Shown here piece by piece: positions 28,075-41,031 of a DNA stretch of 64,000 nt; within the stretch, counting starts at the first letter, position 1; every line of letters begins with the position of its first letter. Under the pieces are notes generated by a model. The model ran no database searches. It worked only from the letters and a program-made list of their open reading frames with translations, and was not told the DNA's origin. A program made the position numbers and the translations under genes. The DNA is from Wocania ichthyoenteri Th78 (GTDB lineage Bacteria > Bacteroidota > Bacteroidia > Flavobacteriales > Flavobacteriaceae), in the NCBI RefSeq assembly GCF_000789235.1, contig NZ_KN525716.1:3144100-3208099 (forward strand), given 5' to 3'.

Positions 28075-29127
28075 TTATATTTGGGCTAATACTAGAGTTA
28101 TTGCAGCATTTGTTGTGCTTTGCAGAGAGATCGAACTTTCGGAGTGGCTTGTAACTTCCCATGTATTATTTAATAATTCGAAAGTAGCATTTCCTGAAAA
28201 AGTTAGATTTAAAAACACTTCAAGCTCTGATGTTACGGCATATGTACCTTGTACATCATCAATAGTTGCATTTACTGTATGTTTTGCTAAACATGTTAAA
28301 TCGTTAGCAAAATCTATAGAATAGTTAGCATAATCATTAGCTGTATCAACACCAGCTGTTACAAATGATTCTACTTTAAATGCCCCATCAACTAAAACAC
28401 CTTCTAATGTATTAGCGTTTTCTTCAGCCTCTTCTTTTAGTTTGTCTGTAGCTAAACATTCAGTAATTTGAGTTTTTAAATCAATATCGCTTGTAATTTC
28501 TACTATAGTATCTCCATTTAAAGTAGCTGTTATTGGATAATTAATAGCAAACTTTTCATCATTACCAAAGTTATTCATATAGGTGTACAATTGTTGCTCA
28601 GATTCAATAACAACACTACCTGTTTGCTCTATGTTTAAGTTGTAAGTTAGAATGGTTATTGGGAAATCTATATCTAAGCAATTAATAGCATCTTCAGCAT
28701 TTTGTTCAGCCTGTTCGCAAGCATTCATAAGTGCATCATATTCCGTTTGATTTGCAATCTGTACTTCTGTATAATTACTTAACTTTACTGAAAGTGGGAA
28801 TTGAAATTCAATAGAATCTTGATCATTAGTAAGTTCTCCAAGTATGTTTAAAACTAAGTTATATTGAGATTCGCTAACAATAGTTATTTCCGTGTTGTTA
28901 ATTGTTGCTGTAACTGGTAATAAAATAGAAGAACAAGACATGCCATCTAAAAAATCGTCAAAACTACCATCGTACATTGATGAGCGTTCTAAATTACTTG
29001 CTGTTTCTGAGTTTGCTGAATTTGTGTTTGGATTTTGTCCATTTTCATTATCAATTTCATCTTGACAAGATGTTAATCCTAAAAATGATAGAAATAAGAT
29101 TGCTGTAAATAATTTTAAGGTTTTCAT
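28075..29127 (-). CDS. Repeat lipoprotein, tandem copy A (system 2)
   Basis: A 350-residue lipoprotein (lipobox LGLTSC, anchor Cys21). After an Asn/Ser-rich linker come four related units of 35-45 residues opening with strands such as LLPVTATI, FPLSVKL, FPITILT and YPITATL, each followed by an Asn-x-Thr turn, an Ile strand and a helix. An acidic/Ala-rich helix (KLKEEAEENAN) leads to one C-terminal beta-rich repeat. Both repeat types are shared with the lipoproteins at 29359 and 8540. Function is unknown. It has its own ECF box (29199-29227), so it is a predicted target of sigma 2. Confidence 0.87.
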   Translation of the reverse strand: MKTLKLFTAILFLSFLGLTSCQDEIDNENGQNPNTNSANSETASNLERSSMYDGSFDDFLDGMSCSSILLPVTATINNTEITIVSESQYNLVLNILGELTNDQDSIEFQFPLSVKLSNYTEVQIANQTEYDALMNACEQAEQNAEDAINCLDIDFPITILTYNLNIEQTGSVVIESEQQLYTYMNNFGNDEKFAINYPITATLNGDTIVEITSDIDLKTQITECLATDKLKEEAEENANTLEGVLVDGAFKVESFVTAGVDTANDYANYSIDFANDLTCLAKHTVNATIDDVQGTYAVTSELEVFLNLTFSGNATFELLNNTWEVTSHSESSISLQSTTNAAITLVLAQI

Positions 29128-29358: not shown

Positions 29359-30411
29359 TTATATTTGGGCTAAAACTAAAGTTACAGCCGCATTTGTTGT
29401 GCTTTGTAAAGAAATTGAGCTCTGAGAATAACTTGTTACTTCCCAAGAATTATTTAGTAATTCGAAAGTAGCATTCCCAGAAAAGGTTAAGTTAAAATAC
29501 ACTTCTGTTTGTGAGGTTACCTCGTAAGTACCTTGTACATCTTCAACTGTTGAATCTACTGTATTCTGTGCAGTACAAGATAAATTGCCAGCTAAATCAA
29601 TGGTATAATTGGCATAATCATTTGCTTTTTCAATACTTGCATCAATAAACGATTGTACTTTAAAGGTTCCTTCAACTAAAATAGCTTCTACAGTTTTAGC
29701 ATCTTCTTCAGCTTCTTCCATCTCATCTTCTATAGCAATGCATTCAGTAATTTTAGTTTGTAAGTCTAAGTCGCTTGTAATACTAATTACTGTATCACTG
29801 TTTAAAGTTGCAGTAATTGGGTAATTAACGGTGAAATATTTATCGTTACCAAAGTCATTGATGTAAGCATATAATTCTTCTTCAGATTCTATAACAACAC
29901 TACCATTTTGATTAAAATTTAAATTATAAGTGAATATAGTGATTGGGAAATTGATATCTAAACAATTAATAGCGTCTTTAGCAGTATTTTCAGCTTGGTT
30001 ACATGCAATTATTAACGCATCATATTCTATTTGATTTGCTATTTGAATTTCTGTGTAATTGCTTAATTGAACAGATATTGGAAAATGTAAAACAACTTCA
30101 TCGTCATCGTTATTGTATTCAGATAAAATATCTATCACTGTTGAATAATCAGACTCGCTAATTACATTAACTTCAGTTCCATTAACGGTAGCCGTAACTG
30201 GTAATAATATAGATGAACAAGATACGTTATCTAAAAAGTCATCAAAACTACCATCATGCATAGACGATCGTTCTAAATTTTGTGCTGTTTGAGAGTCTGC
30301 TGCATTTGCCTTCGAATTGTCTCCATTAATTTTATCGTCTTCATCTTGACAAGATGTAAATCCTAATAAAGACATAAATAAGATTGCTGTAATAAATTTT
30401 AAATTTTTCAT
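29359..30411 (-). CDS. Repeat lipoprotein, tandem copy B (system 2)
   Basis: A 350-residue lipoprotein (lipobox LGFTSC, anchor Cys21), the same length as copy A and clearly similar along its whole length (for instance NLERSSM, then DGSFDDFLD, then SCSSILLPVTATV). The gene was duplicated together with promoter, leader hairpin and terminator. It carries four N-terminal strand-turn-helix units and one C-terminal beta-rich repeat ending TLVLAQI. It is more acidic than copy A in the second unit (NNDDDE). Two ECF boxes point towards it, at 30463-30491 and 30627-30655. Confidence 0.87.
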   Translation of the reverse strand: MKNLKFITAILFMSLLGFTSCQDEDDKINGDNSKANAADSQTAQNLERSSMHDGSFDDFLDNVSCSSILLPVTATVNGTEVNVISESDYSTVIDILSEYNNDDDEVVLHFPISVQLSNYTEIQIANQIEYDALIIACNQAENTAKDAINCLDINFPITIFTYNLNFNQNGSVVIESEEELYAYINDFGNDKYFTVNYPITATLNSDTVISITSDLDLQTKITECIAIEDEMEEAEEDAKTVEAILVEGTFKVQSFIDASIEKANDYANYTIDLAGNLSCTAQNTVDSTVEDVQGTYEVTSQTEVYFNLTFSGNATFELLNNSWEVTSYSQSSISLQSTTNAAVTLVLAQI

Positions 30412-36109: not shown

Positions 36110-37036
36110 ATGAAAGTTACAGTAGTTGGAGCAGGTGCAGTTGGCGCTAGTTGTGCAGAATATATTGCAATTAAAGACTTCGCTTCGGAAGTTGTTTTGC
36201 TAGACATTAAAGAGGGCTATGCCGAAGGTAAAGCTATGGATTTAATGCAATGTGCATCTTTAAACGGGTTTGATACTAAGATTACAGGTATCACAAACGA
36301 TTATAGTAAAACAGCAGATAGCGATATTTGTGTAATTACTTCTGGAATTCCTCGTAAACCAGGAATGACTCGCGAAGAATTAATTGGGATTAATGCAGGT
36401 ATAGTAAAATCAGTATCGTCAAGTTTAATTGAGCATTCTCCAAATACAATTATTATAGTAGTAAGTAATCCTATGGATACGATGACGTATTTAGTTCATA
36501 AATCAACTAACCTTCCTAAAAACAGAATTATAGGCATGGGTGGTGCTTTAGATTCTGCTCGTTTTAAATACAGATTAGCCGAAGCTTTAGAAGCTCCAAT
36601 TAGCGATGTAGACGGTATGGTAATTGGTGGACATAGCGATACTGGTATGGTGCCATTAACATCACATGCTACACGAAACAGTATAAAAGTATCTGAATTT
36701 TTAAGTGAAGACAGATTAAATCAAGTAAAAGAAGACACCAAAGTTGGTGGAGCAACATTAACTAAATTATTAGGTACCTCGGCTTGGTATGCACCAGGTG
36801 CAGCAGTTTCTGGATTAGTACAAGCTATTGCTTGCGATCAAAAGAAAATGTTTCCATGTTCAACTTTATTAGAAGGTGAATATGGTTTAAGCGATTTATG
36901 TATTGGTGTACCAGTAGTTTTAGGCAGAAATGGTATAGAACGTATTGTAAATATAGAACTTAGTGATGCCGAAAAAGCACATATGCAACAAAGTGCTGAA
37001 GGTGTTAAGAAAACTAATGGCTTACTTGAGTTTTAA
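36110..37036 (+). CDS. mdh: Malate dehydrogenase
   Basis: Mdh interconverts malate and oxaloacetate with NAD+ in the TCA cycle. The 308-residue protein is of the LDH-like type found in Bacteroidota: NAD-binding VTVVGAGAVGAS, substrate-binding Arg residues in SGIPRKPGMTR, the NPMD segment, Arg in LDSARFKYRLAE and catalytic His in VIGGHSDTGMVPL. Arg at the substrate-discriminating loop (RKPGMTR) favours malate over lactate. It has its own promoter and a long leader. Confidence 0.96.
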   Translation: MKVTVVGAGAVGASCAEYIAIKDFASEVVLLDIKEGYAEGKAMDLMQCASLNGFDTKITGITNDYSKTADSDICVITSGIPRKPGMTREELIGINAGIVKSVSSSLIEHSPNTIIIVVSNPMDTMTYLVHKSTNLPKNRIIGMGGALDSARFKYRLAEALEAPISDVDGMVIGGHSDTGMVPLTSHATRNSIKVSEFLSEDRLNQVKEDTKVGGATLTKLLGTSAWYAPGAAVSGLVQAIACDQKKMFPCSTLLEGEYGLSDLCIGVPVVLGRNGIERIVNIELSDAEKAHMQQSAEGVKKTNGLLEF

Positions 37037-37223
37037 AATTAAATCTTTTAAAATAGATATTTACGTAAAGACTGTAGAAATACAGTCTTTATTTTTTATA
37101 TACTCAAAAAAAAAATAGGATTTCGGAGAATTTAGGGTTGACATTTTTTCTTTTATCGAAGCAAAATTTTAAAGCATAGCTGTAGTTACGGAGATAAATT
37201 TTAATAAAGAGAAAAGGAAAAAG

Positions 37224-37886
37224 ATGGGTATAAAAATTAGGAATACTATTAGTTTTGAGTATATTTGGCGCATGAAGGCAAAATGGTACATTAGTGCTTT
37301 AATTATTATACTTACTCTATTTGGTGCTATTTCTCAGCAGCAAATTACTGTGCCAAATCAAGAAATTGTATTACAGTTTACAAATACTTCCATAACATCT
37401 CAGGACACTCAAAATACTATTGCTATTGTAAAAAAGCAATTGCAAGATTTAGGTGTTAGTAATATTAAAATAAAGGAAGAAGAAAACGGAAAGCTAGTAA
37501 TTACTTATTACAGTGATACTGATGTAGCCAGTATAAAAAAGACCTTTACAAAAGAAAAAAACATAGTTTTAGATTATGCTTTTAGTAATCAAAATGAAGA
37601 CTCTTCAAAGCTTCCTTTTGATGAAGAGAAAATCAGCTATAATCTTGATGTTTATGAAATTCAAAACGGAAGTGATGTTGAATGGGATTTAAACGGTGTT
37701 TCTGTTGTTGAGTTAAAAGCTGAAAGCAATAGATTTTCAAATCCAAATATATATGCTTTTATTAATGCTGTTGAAATAAACAAAAGCATTGAAAAAGTAG
37801 CCTATAAAATACACTATAATATTGCCATTGCAATAGACAATACTTCATATAAAATACCTGAAGTTAGAGCTGGACCTTTAGCTTAA
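37224..37886 (+). CDS. Candidate Sec-monitoring arrest peptide upstream of secDF
   Basis: A 220-residue protein with one hydrophobic anchor or signal segment at about residues 22-36 (YISALIIILTLFGAI) behind basic residues. Residues 60-120 resemble the P1 region of SecD: IAIVKKQLQDLGVSNIK then NGKLVITYY and DVASIKK can be laid beside the VLRKRIDEFGV, NIQRLGNSGRILVELPG and DVERATG of the SecDF encoded next. The C terminus reads IPEVRAGPLA and stops. R-A-G-P (codons 37866-37877) is the end of the E. coli SecM arrest motif. The gene precedes secDF by 157 bases on the same strand with no TAnnTTTG promoter between. SecM, VemP and RAPP-type peptides hold the same place and logic in other phyla. Stalling itself is inferred. 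The ATG at 37224 has AGGAAAAAG before it. The ATG at 37272, preceded by TATATTTG at 37260-37267, is an alternative leaderless start giving 204 residues. Confidence 0.72.
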   Translation: MGIKIRNTISFEYIWRMKAKWYISALIIILTLFGAISQQQITVPNQEIVLQFTNTSITSQDTQNTIAIVKKQLQDLGVSNIKIKEEENGKLVITYYSDTDVASIKKTFTKEKNIVLDYAFSNQNEDSSKLPFDEEKISYNLDVYEIQNGSDVEWDLNGVSVVELKAESNRFSNPNIYAFINAVEINKSIEKVAYKIHYNIAIAIDNTSYKIPEVRAGPLA

Positions 37887-37892
37887 ATTCAG

Positions 37893-38043
37893 AAAAATTA
37901 GCTTTTATAATCAACCCAAGAGCTATCAAAATTATTAAAACATAAAATTGTCAAATCCCACGAAGTCAAAGATTCATGAATATAATATTATGAATTAAGA
38001 ATCAATAAATAAAGTGGGAAACTAAAACACAAAAAAACACAAA
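37893..38043 (+). promoter_or_regulatory. Structured region between the RAGP gene and secDF
   Basis: Nested inverted pairs are seen: TCCCAC 37956-37961 with GTGGGA 38014-38019, GATTC 37971-37975 with GAATC 37999-38003, and ATTCAT 37972-37977 with ATGAAT 37990-37995 (the last two share bases, so they are partly alternative). A smaller possible stem joins AGCTTTT near 37900 with AAGAGCT near 37918. No terminator T run and no -7 element are present. Such a structure could couple ribosome position on the RAGP gene to initiation at secDF, whose ATG is 24 bases after the last arm. Confidence 0.45.
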
Positions 38044-41031
38044 ATGCAAAATAAAGGATTAGTAAAATTATTTGCGCTTTTGTTTGGTTTGGTAAGTATT
38101 TACCAATTATCATTCACATTCAAAGCCAATCAAATTGAGAGCGAAGCTCAAGAAATCGCTATAAATAAAATAGCCGATACAGAGGAAAACTACAGAGCAA
38201 AAAGAAGCATTGAAGAAACAAACTACTTAGAATCTATAGCCACCGATACCGTTTATAATATAGGTATTGCAAAATTCACTTATAATGATGTGAAGCAAAA
38301 AGCTATGAATCTAGGTTTAGATTTAAAAGGAGGTATTAACGTAATTTTACAAGTATCGGTTAAAGATATCTTAAAAGGATTGGCTAATAATACTAAAGAC
38401 CCTGTTTTTAATAAAGCATTAGATGATGCTACAGAGCTTCAAAAAGATAGCCAAAATACGTATTTAGAAGATTTTTTCGTAGCATTTGATGCGATTAAAG
38501 GCGATACCAAATTAGCATCTCCGGATATATTTTATACCAAAGCATTAGATGGTGAGATAGATGGAAGTATGACTGATGATGAGGTTAAAGGTATCATAGA
38601 AACTAAGATTGATGAATCTATTGTATCTGCTTTCGAGGTATTGCGCAAACGTATTGATGAGTTTGGTGTAACGTCTCCAAACATACAACGTTTAGGGAAT
38701 TCTGGTCGTATTTTAGTAGAATTACCAGGAGTTAAAGATGTTGAGCGTGCTACGGGATTATTACAAAGTACGGCACAATTAGAGTTTTGGGATGCTTATA
38801 AAGGTGAACAATTCTTTCCGTTTTTAGTACAAGCTAATGAGGTTTTAAAAGACATTGTTAAAGTTGATGAAGTGGTTGAGGATGTTGAGTCTCAAGATGA
38901 AGAAAGTGCAGAAGATTCACAAATTGATGCGCTTTTAGGAGAAGCTGAAACCGATTCAACTGCAGTTGCAACAGTAAACCCATTATTCGATTTAATAAAA
39001 GGTCAAGGCTATCAAGGAGGTCCAGTTATTGCAAGCTTCGAATTAAAAGATAGAGAAACAGTATTAAACTATTTAAGTTTACCCCAAGTTAGAGCTTTAT
39101 TACCAGCAGAACAACGTTATGCGAAATTTGCATTTGGTAAACCAGACAAGGACAGTGAGCTTGTAGACTTATATGCTTTAGTTGGTAATAGAGAAGATGT
39201 ACCGCAATTAAGTGGTGCTGTGGTAACTGATGCTAGTAACGAATTTAGTCCAGTAGGTAATAAGTCTGAAGTTGCCATGCAAATGAATGCAAAAGGGGCT
39301 AAGATTTGGGAAGAAATGACTGGTAGAGCATTTACTCAAGGCAGTCAAATAGCCATTGTTTTAGATAATATTGTGTATTCTGCTCCGGGGGTAACTACAG
39401 GACCAATTTCTGGAGGGCGTTCTTCAATCTCAGGAGATTTTACATTAAACGAAGCGATAGATTTAGCAAACGTATTACGTGCTGGTAAATTACCAGCATC
39501 AGCAGATATTATTCAAAGTGAAGTGGTAGGGCCGTCATTAGGTCAAGAAGCTATTGATAGTGGTACTAAATCATTTATGATTGCATTAGCATTAGTTTTA
39601 CTTTGGATGATTTTTTACTATGGTAAAGCAGGTGGATTTGCAGATGTTGCTATGATATTAAACATCTTATTAATCTTTGGTATTTTATCGGGGTTAGGAG
39701 CTGTATTAACATTGCCTGGTATTGCAGGTATTGTATTGACTATTGGTATGTCGGTTGATGCCAACGTACTTATCTTCGAGCGTATTCGAGAAGAAATAGT
39801 TAAAGGTAAAGGGCAAAAAGAAGCCATTCAAGATGGATTTAAAAATGCCTTATCTTCAATTTTAGATGCGAATATTACAACAGGTTTAACGGCATTAATC
39901 TTATTTATTTTTGGTACAGGACCAATTAAAGGATTTGCAACTACCTTATTAATTGGTATTGGAACATCGTTATTTACGGCTATTTTTATTACAAGATTAT
40001 TGGTAGACTGGTATGTAAACAAAGGCGGAAAATTAGATTTCTCAACAGGATTAACTAAAAACCTGTTTAGAAATATTAGTATTGAATTCTTAAAGAAACG
40101 TAAAGTAGCTTATATTATTTCTGCAACATTTATTATAGTAAGTTTAGGTTCTCTATTTACTAATAGTTTAGACCAAGGTGTCGATTTTGTTGGAGGTAGA
40201 ACCTACCAAGTACGTTTTGCACAAGATGTTAGTGCTTCAGAAATTACATCAGCGCTTTCTGATGCTTTTGGTAGTGCAGATGCTAAAACCTTTGGTGATG
40301 CTAATCAATTAAAAATTACAACTAAGTATAAAGTAAACGAAACTGGAGCTGAGGTTGATGAAGAATTAAGAAAAGCATTATATACAGCATTAATACCACA
40401 TTTAGATGGTGTGTCTTACGAAGATTTTATTAGTGATGCCGATACGAAAACGGTTGGCTTAATGAAGTATTATAAAGTAAGTCCAACCATTGCCGATGAT
40501 ATTAAACAAGCCTCATTTTGGGCTATTTTAGGGTCGTTAATTGTAGTATTCCTTTATATCTTATTGCGTTTTAAGAAATGGCAATACTCATTAGGTGCAG
40601 TAGCAGCTGTTTTTCATGATGTATTAATTGTATTAGGTGTATTCTCATTAACCTATAAGTTTATGCCATTTAGTATGGAAATAGATCAAGCATTTATCGC
40701 TGCTATATTAACGGTTATTGGTTATTCATTAAATGATACAGTGGTAGTATTCGATAGAATTCGTGAATTCTTTAACGAGCACACAGCTTGGAAATTCGAT
40801 AAAGTGGTTAACGTATCATTAAGTAGTACATTAAGTAGAACACTAAATACATCATTAACAACGTTAGTAGTATTATTAGCCATCTTTATTTTTGGTGGTG
40901 ATTCTATTAGAGGCTTTATGTTCGCCTTAATTGTAGGTGTAATAGTTGGTACCTACTCATCGTTATTTATTGCAACGCCAATAATGTACGATTCAGTAAA
41001 TAAATTAGAAGGAAAAAAGAAGAAAGACTAA
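38044..41031 (+). CDS. secDF: Fused protein translocase SecDF
   Basis: A 995-residue fusion of SecD and SecF, the usual Bacteroidota form. It uses the proton gradient to help pull preproteins through SecYEG. The SecD half has the first membrane helix, the large periplasmic P1 region (KAMNLGLDLKGGINVILQV, VLRKRIDEFGVTSPNIQRLG, the AQLEFWDAYKG part) and five further helices including GMSVDANVLIFERIREE. The SecF half starts near residue 680 (KVAYIISATFIIVSLGS, GVDFVGGRTYQV) and has GYSLNDTVVVFDRIREF. The P1 part has an acidic insert (about 280-300, EDVESQDEESAEDSQ). It is the predicted target of the RAGP protein upstream. Confidence 0.98.
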   Translation: MQNKGLVKLFALLFGLVSIYQLSFTFKANQIESEAQEIAINKIADTEENYRAKRSIEETNYLESIATDTVYNIGIAKFTYNDVKQKAMNLGLDLKGGINVILQVSVKDILKGLANNTKDPVFNKALDDATELQKDSQNTYLEDFFVAFDAIKGDTKLASPDIFYTKALDGEIDGSMTDDEVKGIIETKIDESIVSAFEVLRKRIDEFGVTSPNIQRLGNSGRILVELPGVKDVERATGLLQSTAQLEFWDAYKGEQFFPFLVQANEVLKDIVKVDEVVEDVESQDEESAEDSQIDALLGEAETDSTAVATVNPLFDLIKGQGYQGGPVIASFELKDRETVLNYLSLPQVRALLPAEQRYAKFAFGKPDKDSELVDLYALVGNREDVPQLSGAVVTDASNEFSPVGNKSEVAMQMNAKGAKIWEEMTGRAFTQGSQIAIVLDNIVYSAPGVTTGPISGGRSSISGDFTLNEAIDLANVLRAGKLPASADIIQSEVVGPSLGQEAIDSGTKSFMIALALVLLWMIFYYGKAGGFADVAMILNILLIFGILSGLGAVLTLPGIAGIVLTIGMSVDANVLIFERIREEIVKGKGQKEAIQDGFKNALSSILDANITTGLTALILFIFGTGPIKGFATTLLIGIGTSLFTAIFITRLLVDWYVNKGGKLDFSTGLTKNLFRNISIEFLKKRKVAYIISATFIIVSLGSLFTNSLDQGVDFVGGRTYQVRFAQDVSASEITSALSDAFGSADAKTFGDANQLKITTKYKVNETGAEVDEELRKALYTALIPHLDGVSYEDFISDADTKTVGLMKYYKVSPTIADDIKQASFWAILGSLIVVFLYILLRFKKWQYSLGAVAAVFHDVLIVLGVFSLTYKFMPFSMEIDQAFIAAILTVIGYSLNDTVVVFDRIREFFNEHTAWKFDKVVNVSLSSTLSRTLNTSLTTLVVLLAIFIFGGDSIRGFMFALIVGVIVGTYSSLFIATPIMYDSVNKLEGKKKKD

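Follow-up and report, generated by a model that had tools for sequence, protein, structure and literature searches.

The window, a 64,000-nt stretch of the Wocania ichthyoenteri Th78 genome, contains a short open reading frame between the malate dehydrogenase gene mdh (36110-37036) and secDF (38044..41031); unless noted otherwise, the features described below lie on the plus strand. Downstream of mdh is an intrinsic terminator (37065..37092), the sole terminator-like site within 37000-38100, and in many relatives a similar hairpin is found upstream of the corresponding short frame. As first called, this upstream ORF (uORF) runs from 37224 to 37886 and ends in ...IPEVRAGPLA-stop, with secDF—its putative regulatory target—as the next gene. 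In these respects an earlier reading of the sequence alone (hereafter, the sequence-only reading) was accurate: the ORF coordinates, the C-terminal EVRAGPLA and the neighbouring secDF are as it gave them. Elsewhere in the window, two adjacent ORFs on the minus strand (28075-29127 and 29359-30411), both of 350 aa, possibly represent a tandem duplication.

The uORF most likely starts at the ATG at 37272 (204 aa; 37272..37886) rather than at 37224, since 98 of 115 homologues have ATG and 12 have GTG at the aligned codon, 106 of them lack an upstream in-frame ATG within 40 codons, and a promoter -7 box occupies 37260-37267. The reading frame itself opens fewer than 16 codons before the aligned start in 46 of the 115 homologues. 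We annotate the revised frame as a putative arrest-peptide gene derived from the SecD P1 domain. It encodes a single N-terminal hydrophobic stretch (37275..37334; residues 18-37 when counted from 37224), predicted from the sequence to be a transmembrane or signal segment. This segment aligns with the N terminus of a P1 lipoprotein introduced below and is predicted to be the counterpart of either SecD TM1 or the lipoprotein signal. An N-terminal SecD-P1-like subdomain (37359..37571) is followed by a C-terminal one (37638..37877), which in hhalign comparisons ends at the loop equivalent to SAPxVxxGP. Here, ~180 residues after the hydrophobic segment, lies the putative arrest motif IPEVRAGP (37854..37877), the last four codons of which specify R215 (37866-37868), A216 (37869-37871), G217 (37872-37874) and P218 (37875-37877). 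The protein has no Pfam match above cutoff. Its dN/dS of 0.15-0.23 against three relatives reveals purifying selection across the whole domain, which would be compatible with a function of the finished protein.

Searching the uORF protein against 299 genomes of the window's family returned matches in 132 genomes at E ≤ 0.01, some of the weak ones sitting in frames of ~1000 aa that correspond to SecDF, and 116 homologous uORF loci were collected from the 299 genomes. RAGP is present in every one of the 115 homologues with a complete C terminus (in the 116th, a contig end cuts the sequence after ...PEVR), with zero entropy at all four positions; nearby, P212 is conserved in 113/115, E213 and V214 in 103/115 each, and I211 in 97/115. 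This invariance persists despite identities to the window protein as low as 26%, the use of all six Arg codons and of all four codons each for Ala, Gly and Pro, and a variable tail after the proline (two residues in 71/115 loci, 3-13 in the remainder), which indicates that selection acts on the peptide. A profile stripped of the motif (residues 1-118) recovered the identical 116 genomes from the same set of 299 and added four weak matches, whose frames span 299-329 aa (G179, G198, G186 and G088), those in G179 and G198 being P1 lipoproteins. Even with this motif-free profile, no RAGP-less uORF homologue was seen in the 299 family genomes. From composition, RAGP is expected within the last 15 residues at a chance of ~4e-5 per ORF, and it occurs there in one of the 76 window ORFs of at least 60 aa. 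The sequence-only reading had worried about a chance match of four residues and had suggested aligning the C termini encoded upstream of flavobacterial secDF; the outcome of that alignment is strongly positive, with RAGP-less homologues numbering 0/115, and this conservation puts the motif beyond chance.

The linkage to secDF is equally regular, secDF being the next gene, 102-267 nt away, in 114/114 loci with enough contig. A sample of 296 genomes from the order, counted irrespective of family, yielded no full-length homologue outside the window's family. A scan of named genomes found 302 relatives, the best 80 of which were kept for analysis, and included Flaviramulus, Wocania, Gaetbulibacter, Flavivirga, Algibacter, Aquimarina, Psychroserpens, Lacinutrix, Gelidibacter and other genera; the 302 were left out of the invariance claim because one search pattern includes RAGP. 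As a comparison set we used 20 uORF-less loci, a non-random sample of genomes whose SecDF matched the family protein or profile, with 8/20 from genus g127. None of the 20 carries RAGP, RAPG, RAPP or RGPP upstream of secDF, and mdh directly precedes secDF in 16 of them. Two further observations concern the surroundings of the motif and gene. In L126, L134, L136, L141, L142, L147 and other named loci, the uORF is immediately preceded by a different ORF of ~217-225 aa that has a signal-like start. Where exactly two residues follow RAGP (71/115), the stop codon occupies +13 to +15 relative to the P site, positions that a stalled ribosome usually covers.

Arrest by peptides of this kind is largely known at the level of the group. 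Fujiwara et al. 2024 (PMC10987492) searched the uORFs of secA, secDF and yidC with RAGP among the query motifs, and their uDF_RQH_Flavobacteriales arrested translation in vitro, B. subtilis ribosomes being stalled efficiently and those of E. coli less so. Judged by order, position and motif, the window's uORF family would be this group. Three features of RQH members are found in the window: a small (<300 aa; here 204 aa) and unannotated uORF that immediately precedes a sec gene; an N-terminal signal, read from the sequence, with a spacer of more than 30 aa to the motif; and a RAPP-like motif near the C terminus, conserved in 115/115. In the same work, RQH members were grouped by order for want of overall similarity, the P site of the stalled ribosome contained the third motif residue in the members toeprinted, and most RAPP-like stretches of common E. 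coli and B. subtilis proteins failed to arrest efficiently. On this precedent, Gly217 and Pro218 of the window peptide are predicted to occupy the P and A sites of the stalled ribosome. A further study (PMC12992588), whose main text does not mention Flavobacteria, reports RAGP to be under-represented in bacterial proteomes. The sequence-only reading had proposed a SecM-like arrest peptide. That interpretation is upheld in part. Its arrest component is supported by the invariant RAGP and by the published Flavobacteriales group, which stalls ribosomes in vitro (PMC10987492), and is not new; the uORF is no SecM homologue and has only [V/I]RAGP in common with SecM.

By its sequence, the uORF protein looks like a truncated relative of the periplasmic P1 domain of SecD, a kinship that the sequence-only reading overlooked. 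Two NCBIfam SecD results point weakly in this direction (51/113 and 34/113 members matched at E ≤ 0.1), the strongest hit to a SecDF model across all members having E 1.2e-8, while the commonest non-Sec NCBIfam model matches 7/113 members; Pfam SecD-TM1 is weakly matched by 8/113. Profile-profile comparison by hhalign aligned the uORF family with SecDF at a probability of 89% (E 2.2e-6, score 51), whereas none of 40 column shuffles scored above 19.2 and the reversed profile reached 22. The alignment is colinear, the N-terminal half of the uORF falling on profile columns 177-257 and the C-terminal half on columns 382-470. When the uORF profile was cut before residue 190, removing the last 14 residues, the score dropped to 30.6 (probability 14%), and the N-terminal half alone scored 27.3 (probability 10%). 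The loop region therefore carries much of the SecDF signal, and the P1 homology is weak on the SecDF side once the C-terminal loop is taken away. In alignments both to SecDF and to the P1 lipoprotein, RAGP is placed on SecD's SAPxVxxGP loop.

Among 799 ORFs from the window and 80 named loci, the uORF profile matched 71/81 SecDF proteins and 17/638 others at E < 0.1. The window's own SecDF reached only E 0.17 in this set and was not listed at E ≤ 10 when the profile was run against the window genome. Structure-based searches contributed little: the AF2 model of the uORF protein is poor (mean pLDDT 56.5, with ~75-80 only in residues 31-90) and was rejected as evidence on the whole protein, Foldseek returned no match at E ≤ 0.001 (SecDF 5xam ranked fifth, at E 0.088), and a PDB sequence search gave two matches (E 0.11 and 0.13), neither of them SecD.

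At least 14 of the 17 non-SecDF matches are products of a third gene, which encodes a free SecD P1 domain. This protein of 300-327 aa is encoded between mdh and the uORF in 15 of the 80 named loci (the best 80 of 302), for example at L166:4044-4958 and L159:3953-4906 and in 13 further named loci; in L128 and L146 another ORF separates it from the uORF. In 14/15 of these P1 proteins a Ser-Cys pair lies near the N terminus, which we take to be a lipoprotein-like lipobox. All 10 of the 15 that were scanned match a SecDF model (E 4.7e-31 to 1.3e-59), and when the 15 were combined into a profile, it could be aligned to the uORF family across 205 columns (E 6.9e-12). One locus, L249 (G198, reverse strand), has the P1 lipoprotein between mdh and secDF and lacks the uORF; in the window, no P1 lipoprotein ORF was seen between mdh and the uORF. 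From these sequence relationships, the lipoprotein is a possible surviving intermediate between SecD and the uORF. Possibly a further relative is a 480-aa ORF from a different family of the order (L252:2954-4393, reverse strand; G340), whose start is lipoprotein-like and which matches the uORF profile at E 2e-7 over query positions 6-69.

This ancestry raises the question of whether the uORF simply encodes a membrane-anchored, periplasmic accessory of SecDF, with RAGP as a loop remnant that stalls nothing. Its SecD homology, the purifying selection over the entire domain and the sibling lipoprotein, which sits in the same neighbourhood without RAGP, would all fit such a protein. However, RAGP is special to the uORF, being absent from 83 partial SecDF sequences, 81 SecDF ORFs and 15 P1 lipoproteins. 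SecDF proteins and lipoproteins vary exactly where the uORF keeps R, A, G and P invariant: the letters found across the two groups include TTGA, TTGP, SNGA, SSGP and others, with TTGA in 27/81 and TTGP in 25/81 SecDF proteins and SAGP in one P1 lipoprotein. Furthermore, the uORF chain stops 2-13 residues after RAGP, and the published Flavobacteriales group does stall ribosomes (PMC10987492). We regard an ordinary accessory protein as very unlikely.

Transcription of the uORF would start immediately at its coding sequence. A sigma-A -7 box, TATATTTG (37260..37267; promoter P1), lies 4 nt before the start codon; across the family, TAnnTTTG ends 4-6 nt before the start in 106/115 loci and exactly 4 nt before it in 99/115. 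The whole stretch TATATTTG-GCGC-ATG (37260-37274 in the window) is strongly conserved over the 115 loci. In F. johnsoniae, probable promoters have their transcription start site 4 or 5 nt past TAnnTTTG and a weak -33 element (PMC6847099), and in F. psychrophilum 5.5% of mRNAs are leaderless (PMC9723704). Given the box spacing and the F. johnsoniae start-site distance, the uORF mRNA is predicted to be leaderless, starting at or next to the AUG.

A promoter-like element of secDF itself (P2), TATATTTGC with a TTG ~20 nt before it, was recognised in 72/114 loci, sitting 40-62 nt upstream of the secDF ATG in 69 of the 72. Counting exact -7 boxes between the uORF stop and secDF, and leaving out L087 for its ambiguous secDF start, 79/113 loci have one and 34/113, including the window, have none, as compared to uORF-less loci, where an exact box lies within 230 nt of secDF in 20/20. 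The exact box is thus missing from 34/113 loci with the uORF versus 0/20 without it (Fisher p 0.002, kinship ignored). In the window, TTGTCAAATC (37948..37957) reads as a relic of the P2 -33 element, and the -7 position (37972-37979, at a 24-nt spacing taken from the relative L002) reads ATTCATGA, the box being lost. No plus-strand TAnnTTTG occurs in the window between 37268 and 38043, and from the mdh terminator to secDF the only plus-strand instances are the uORF box and TAGTTTTG at 37250-37257. The assertion, made from the sequence alone, that no housekeeping promoter separates the two genes is hence correct for the window but does not extend to most relatives, where the box is present.

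The RNA between the stall codon and secDF folds better than shuffled sequences (mean z -2.2, 82% below -1; 113 loci), with a z of -2.66 for the window (37872-38058). A hairpin predicted upstream of secDF in the window (37956..38019; arms 37956-37961 UCCCAC and 38014-38019 GUGGGA) is likely the counterpart of a conserved GUCAAAUU/AAUUUGAC stem, which in the 97/113 loci that pass an arm-consensus filter stops 11-19 nt short of the secDF ATG; the window locus, L001, fails this filter and is hence outside the 97. Over the 97 loci, 638 of 776 stem cells pair, versus a mean of 618.9 and a largest value of 635 in 1000 exchanges of the 3' arms. Within 62/113 loci chosen by arm consensus and a loop of 29-37, 93.1% of stem cells pair and both-side changes occur in 4/7 pairs; such changes fill 13 cells as compared to 3.4 in shuffles, none of 500 shuffles being as high. 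We also anchored the search on the promoter, using loci with a P2 box within 75 nt (74/113 with and 13/20 without the uORF). A stem of at least 6 pairs, at least 2 of them G-C, was present in 51/74 uORF-containing versus 0/13 uORF-less loci (Fisher p 2e-6, kinship ignored, as in every count of loci given here), and when 3' ends were swapped between loci it was present in 36.9 of the 74 on average and never in more than 41. Generic best-stem scores near the secDF start hardly exceed those of shuffles (score of at least 15 in 67/113 loci with and 8/20 without the uORF, and in 139/565 shuffles), so only the arm-specific tests carry weight. No intrinsic terminator was found between the uORF and secDF in the window, and an Rfam scan gave three matches, all below the gathering score.

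The dyad might instead be a DNA operator around P2, unrelated to arrest. In most filter-passing loci the arms lie ~30 nt apart and flank the -7 box, and a symmetric operator could mimic part of the covariation and short-loop evidence. Set against this are the excess of both-side pair changes and the stem with a short loop where P2 is gone (a loop of 4 in L020 and of 6 in L038); for the latter reason we read the conserved dyad as more likely an RNA stem, and consider an operator somewhat unlikely. Since P2 transcripts would lack the 5' arm, the RNA stem would be formable only by the uORF transcript.

We then asked how a stall could be transmitted to secDF. Direct unmasking of secDF by the stalled ribosome was not supported: the predicted accessibility of 113 loci is 0.615 in the free and 0.601 in the stalled state, and changes above 0.1 amount to a rise in 5 and a fall in 11 loci. 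An attenuator-like competitor of the 5' stem arm was dismissed, as it occurs in 4/97 loci versus 7.5% in shuffles; the stall site lies a median of 127 nt upstream of this arm (97 loci). In the window fold, the stall-site codons pair with the secDF start, and this pairing is present in L001-L003, yet it failed as a general feature, with means of 11.58 for real and 11.62 for swapped sequences (113 loci). The proposal of the sequence-only reading that the stall may change access to secDF has the structured intergenic region and the uORF-linked stem on its side, but predicted accessibility is nearly unchanged by the stall, no pairing relay emerged, and a -7 box lies in between in 79/113 loci. Candidate routes from stall to secDF would be protection from Rho, mRNA stability, and coupling through further structures.

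These results bear on a scenario in which arrest is real but secDF is driven mainly by P2, such that the stall tunes only a minor read-through transcript or what becomes of it, with little effect on SecDF. The TAnnTTTG element between the genes in 79/113 loci, the missing 5' stem arm of P2 transcripts and the failure to find a folding relay speak for such a scenario. It accounts less well for the absence of the exact box in the window and 33 more of the 113 loci versus none of the 20 uORF-less ones, and for a stem that accompanies the uORF (51/74 versus 0/13 loci), and we hold it to be rather unlikely.

Altogether, we consider it probable that the uORF product is an arrest peptide of the RAGP/RAPP kind that monitors export, derives from SecD P1 and raises secDF expression when export is poor. 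A SecD P1 relative without the head insertion and everything past SAPxVxxGP would have given rise to the uORF, and the SAPxVxxGP loop would have turned into IPEVRAGP, now 2-13 residues from the stop. From an mRNA that would begin at or beside the AUG, the transmembrane or signal segment would engage Sec with about 180 residues still to follow. The ribosome would pause at RAGP, with Gly217 and Pro218 in the P and A sites, until Sec/SecDF pulls on the chain or the SecD-like domain folds outside; when export is poor it would wait there longer, and the uORF-initiated transcript would give more secDF expression. The sequence comparisons show the family, the invariant motif, its gene context, the SecD ancestry and the conserved promoter and stem; for the window locus, we infer stalling of the protein, leaderless transcription, release by pulling and secDF induction. 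More tentatively, and with rather more doubt than confidence, we suggest that the monitor mimics the machine it controls: the SecD P1 loop would have been converted in place to a stall motif, export and folding of the domain, which may itself need SecDF, would release the ribosome, the lipoprotein would be a surviving intermediate, and the leaderless transcript with its co-evolved stem would serve as the read-out.

In the literature searched, with supplements outside its scope, we found no report of a SecD-derived arrest peptide or of a SecD P1 lipoprotein, and the SecD origin of the arrest peptide seems to be new. Beside ancestry, the -7 box that predicts a leaderless mRNA, the uORF-linked covarying stem and the missing P2 box in 34/113 loci are new. 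Fujiwara et al. 2024 (PMC10987492) left the origin of such arrest peptides open because they share almost nothing beyond the motif, and favoured repeated independent emergence. Here, an arrest peptide may have an identifiable parent, the SecD periplasmic domain, with a possible intermediate extant in some genomes. As only one or two substitutions separate RAGP from sequences such as TTGP (25/81 SecDF) or SAGP (in one lipoprotein), the birth of an arrest peptide becomes testable by residue swaps in SecD-loop sequences. The cell may thus sense export trouble through a piece of its own export machine, by a gene found in many marine flavobacteria. In a phylum whose promoters and translation initiation are unusual, a conserved exported domain would be available as a reporter, and genomes with and without the uORF offer two natural states for studying secDF regulation.

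Among known systems, the closest is uDF_RQH_Flavobacteriales, likewise small and unannotated, with an N-terminal signal and a RAPP-like C-terminal motif, and located before secDF in the same order; in PMC10987492 we saw no mention of SecD ancestry, a leaderless promoter, a P1 lipoprotein or this stem. SecM of E. coli resembles the uORF in its N-terminal signal, in [V/I]RAGP a few residues before the stop and in the Sec gene downstream. However, SecM precedes secA and the uORF secDF, the uORF has a conserved SecD-like domain unlike SecM, and the SecM tunnel residues F-x4-W-I-x4-G are absent, the columns for F150, W155 and I156 being different, such that FxxxxWIxxxxGIRAGP is not matched and SecM membership was rejected. 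VemP of Vibrio is similar as an arrest peptide upstream of secD/F genes. To our knowledge, VemP has no RAGP and no SecD homology. The uDF_NAP-stop peptides share phylum and position before secDF with the uORF and stall at the stop codon after a terminal Pro (PMC10987492); membership in this class was rejected, as at least two residues follow the RAGP proline in 115/115. Finally, compared with SecD itself, the uORF has neither the head insertion nor the end of P1, nor any of the later transmembrane segments, its product ending 2-13 residues past the loop, while it has in common with SecD P1 and SecDF a colinear homology over the P1 base, with RAGP on the SAPxVxxGP loop.
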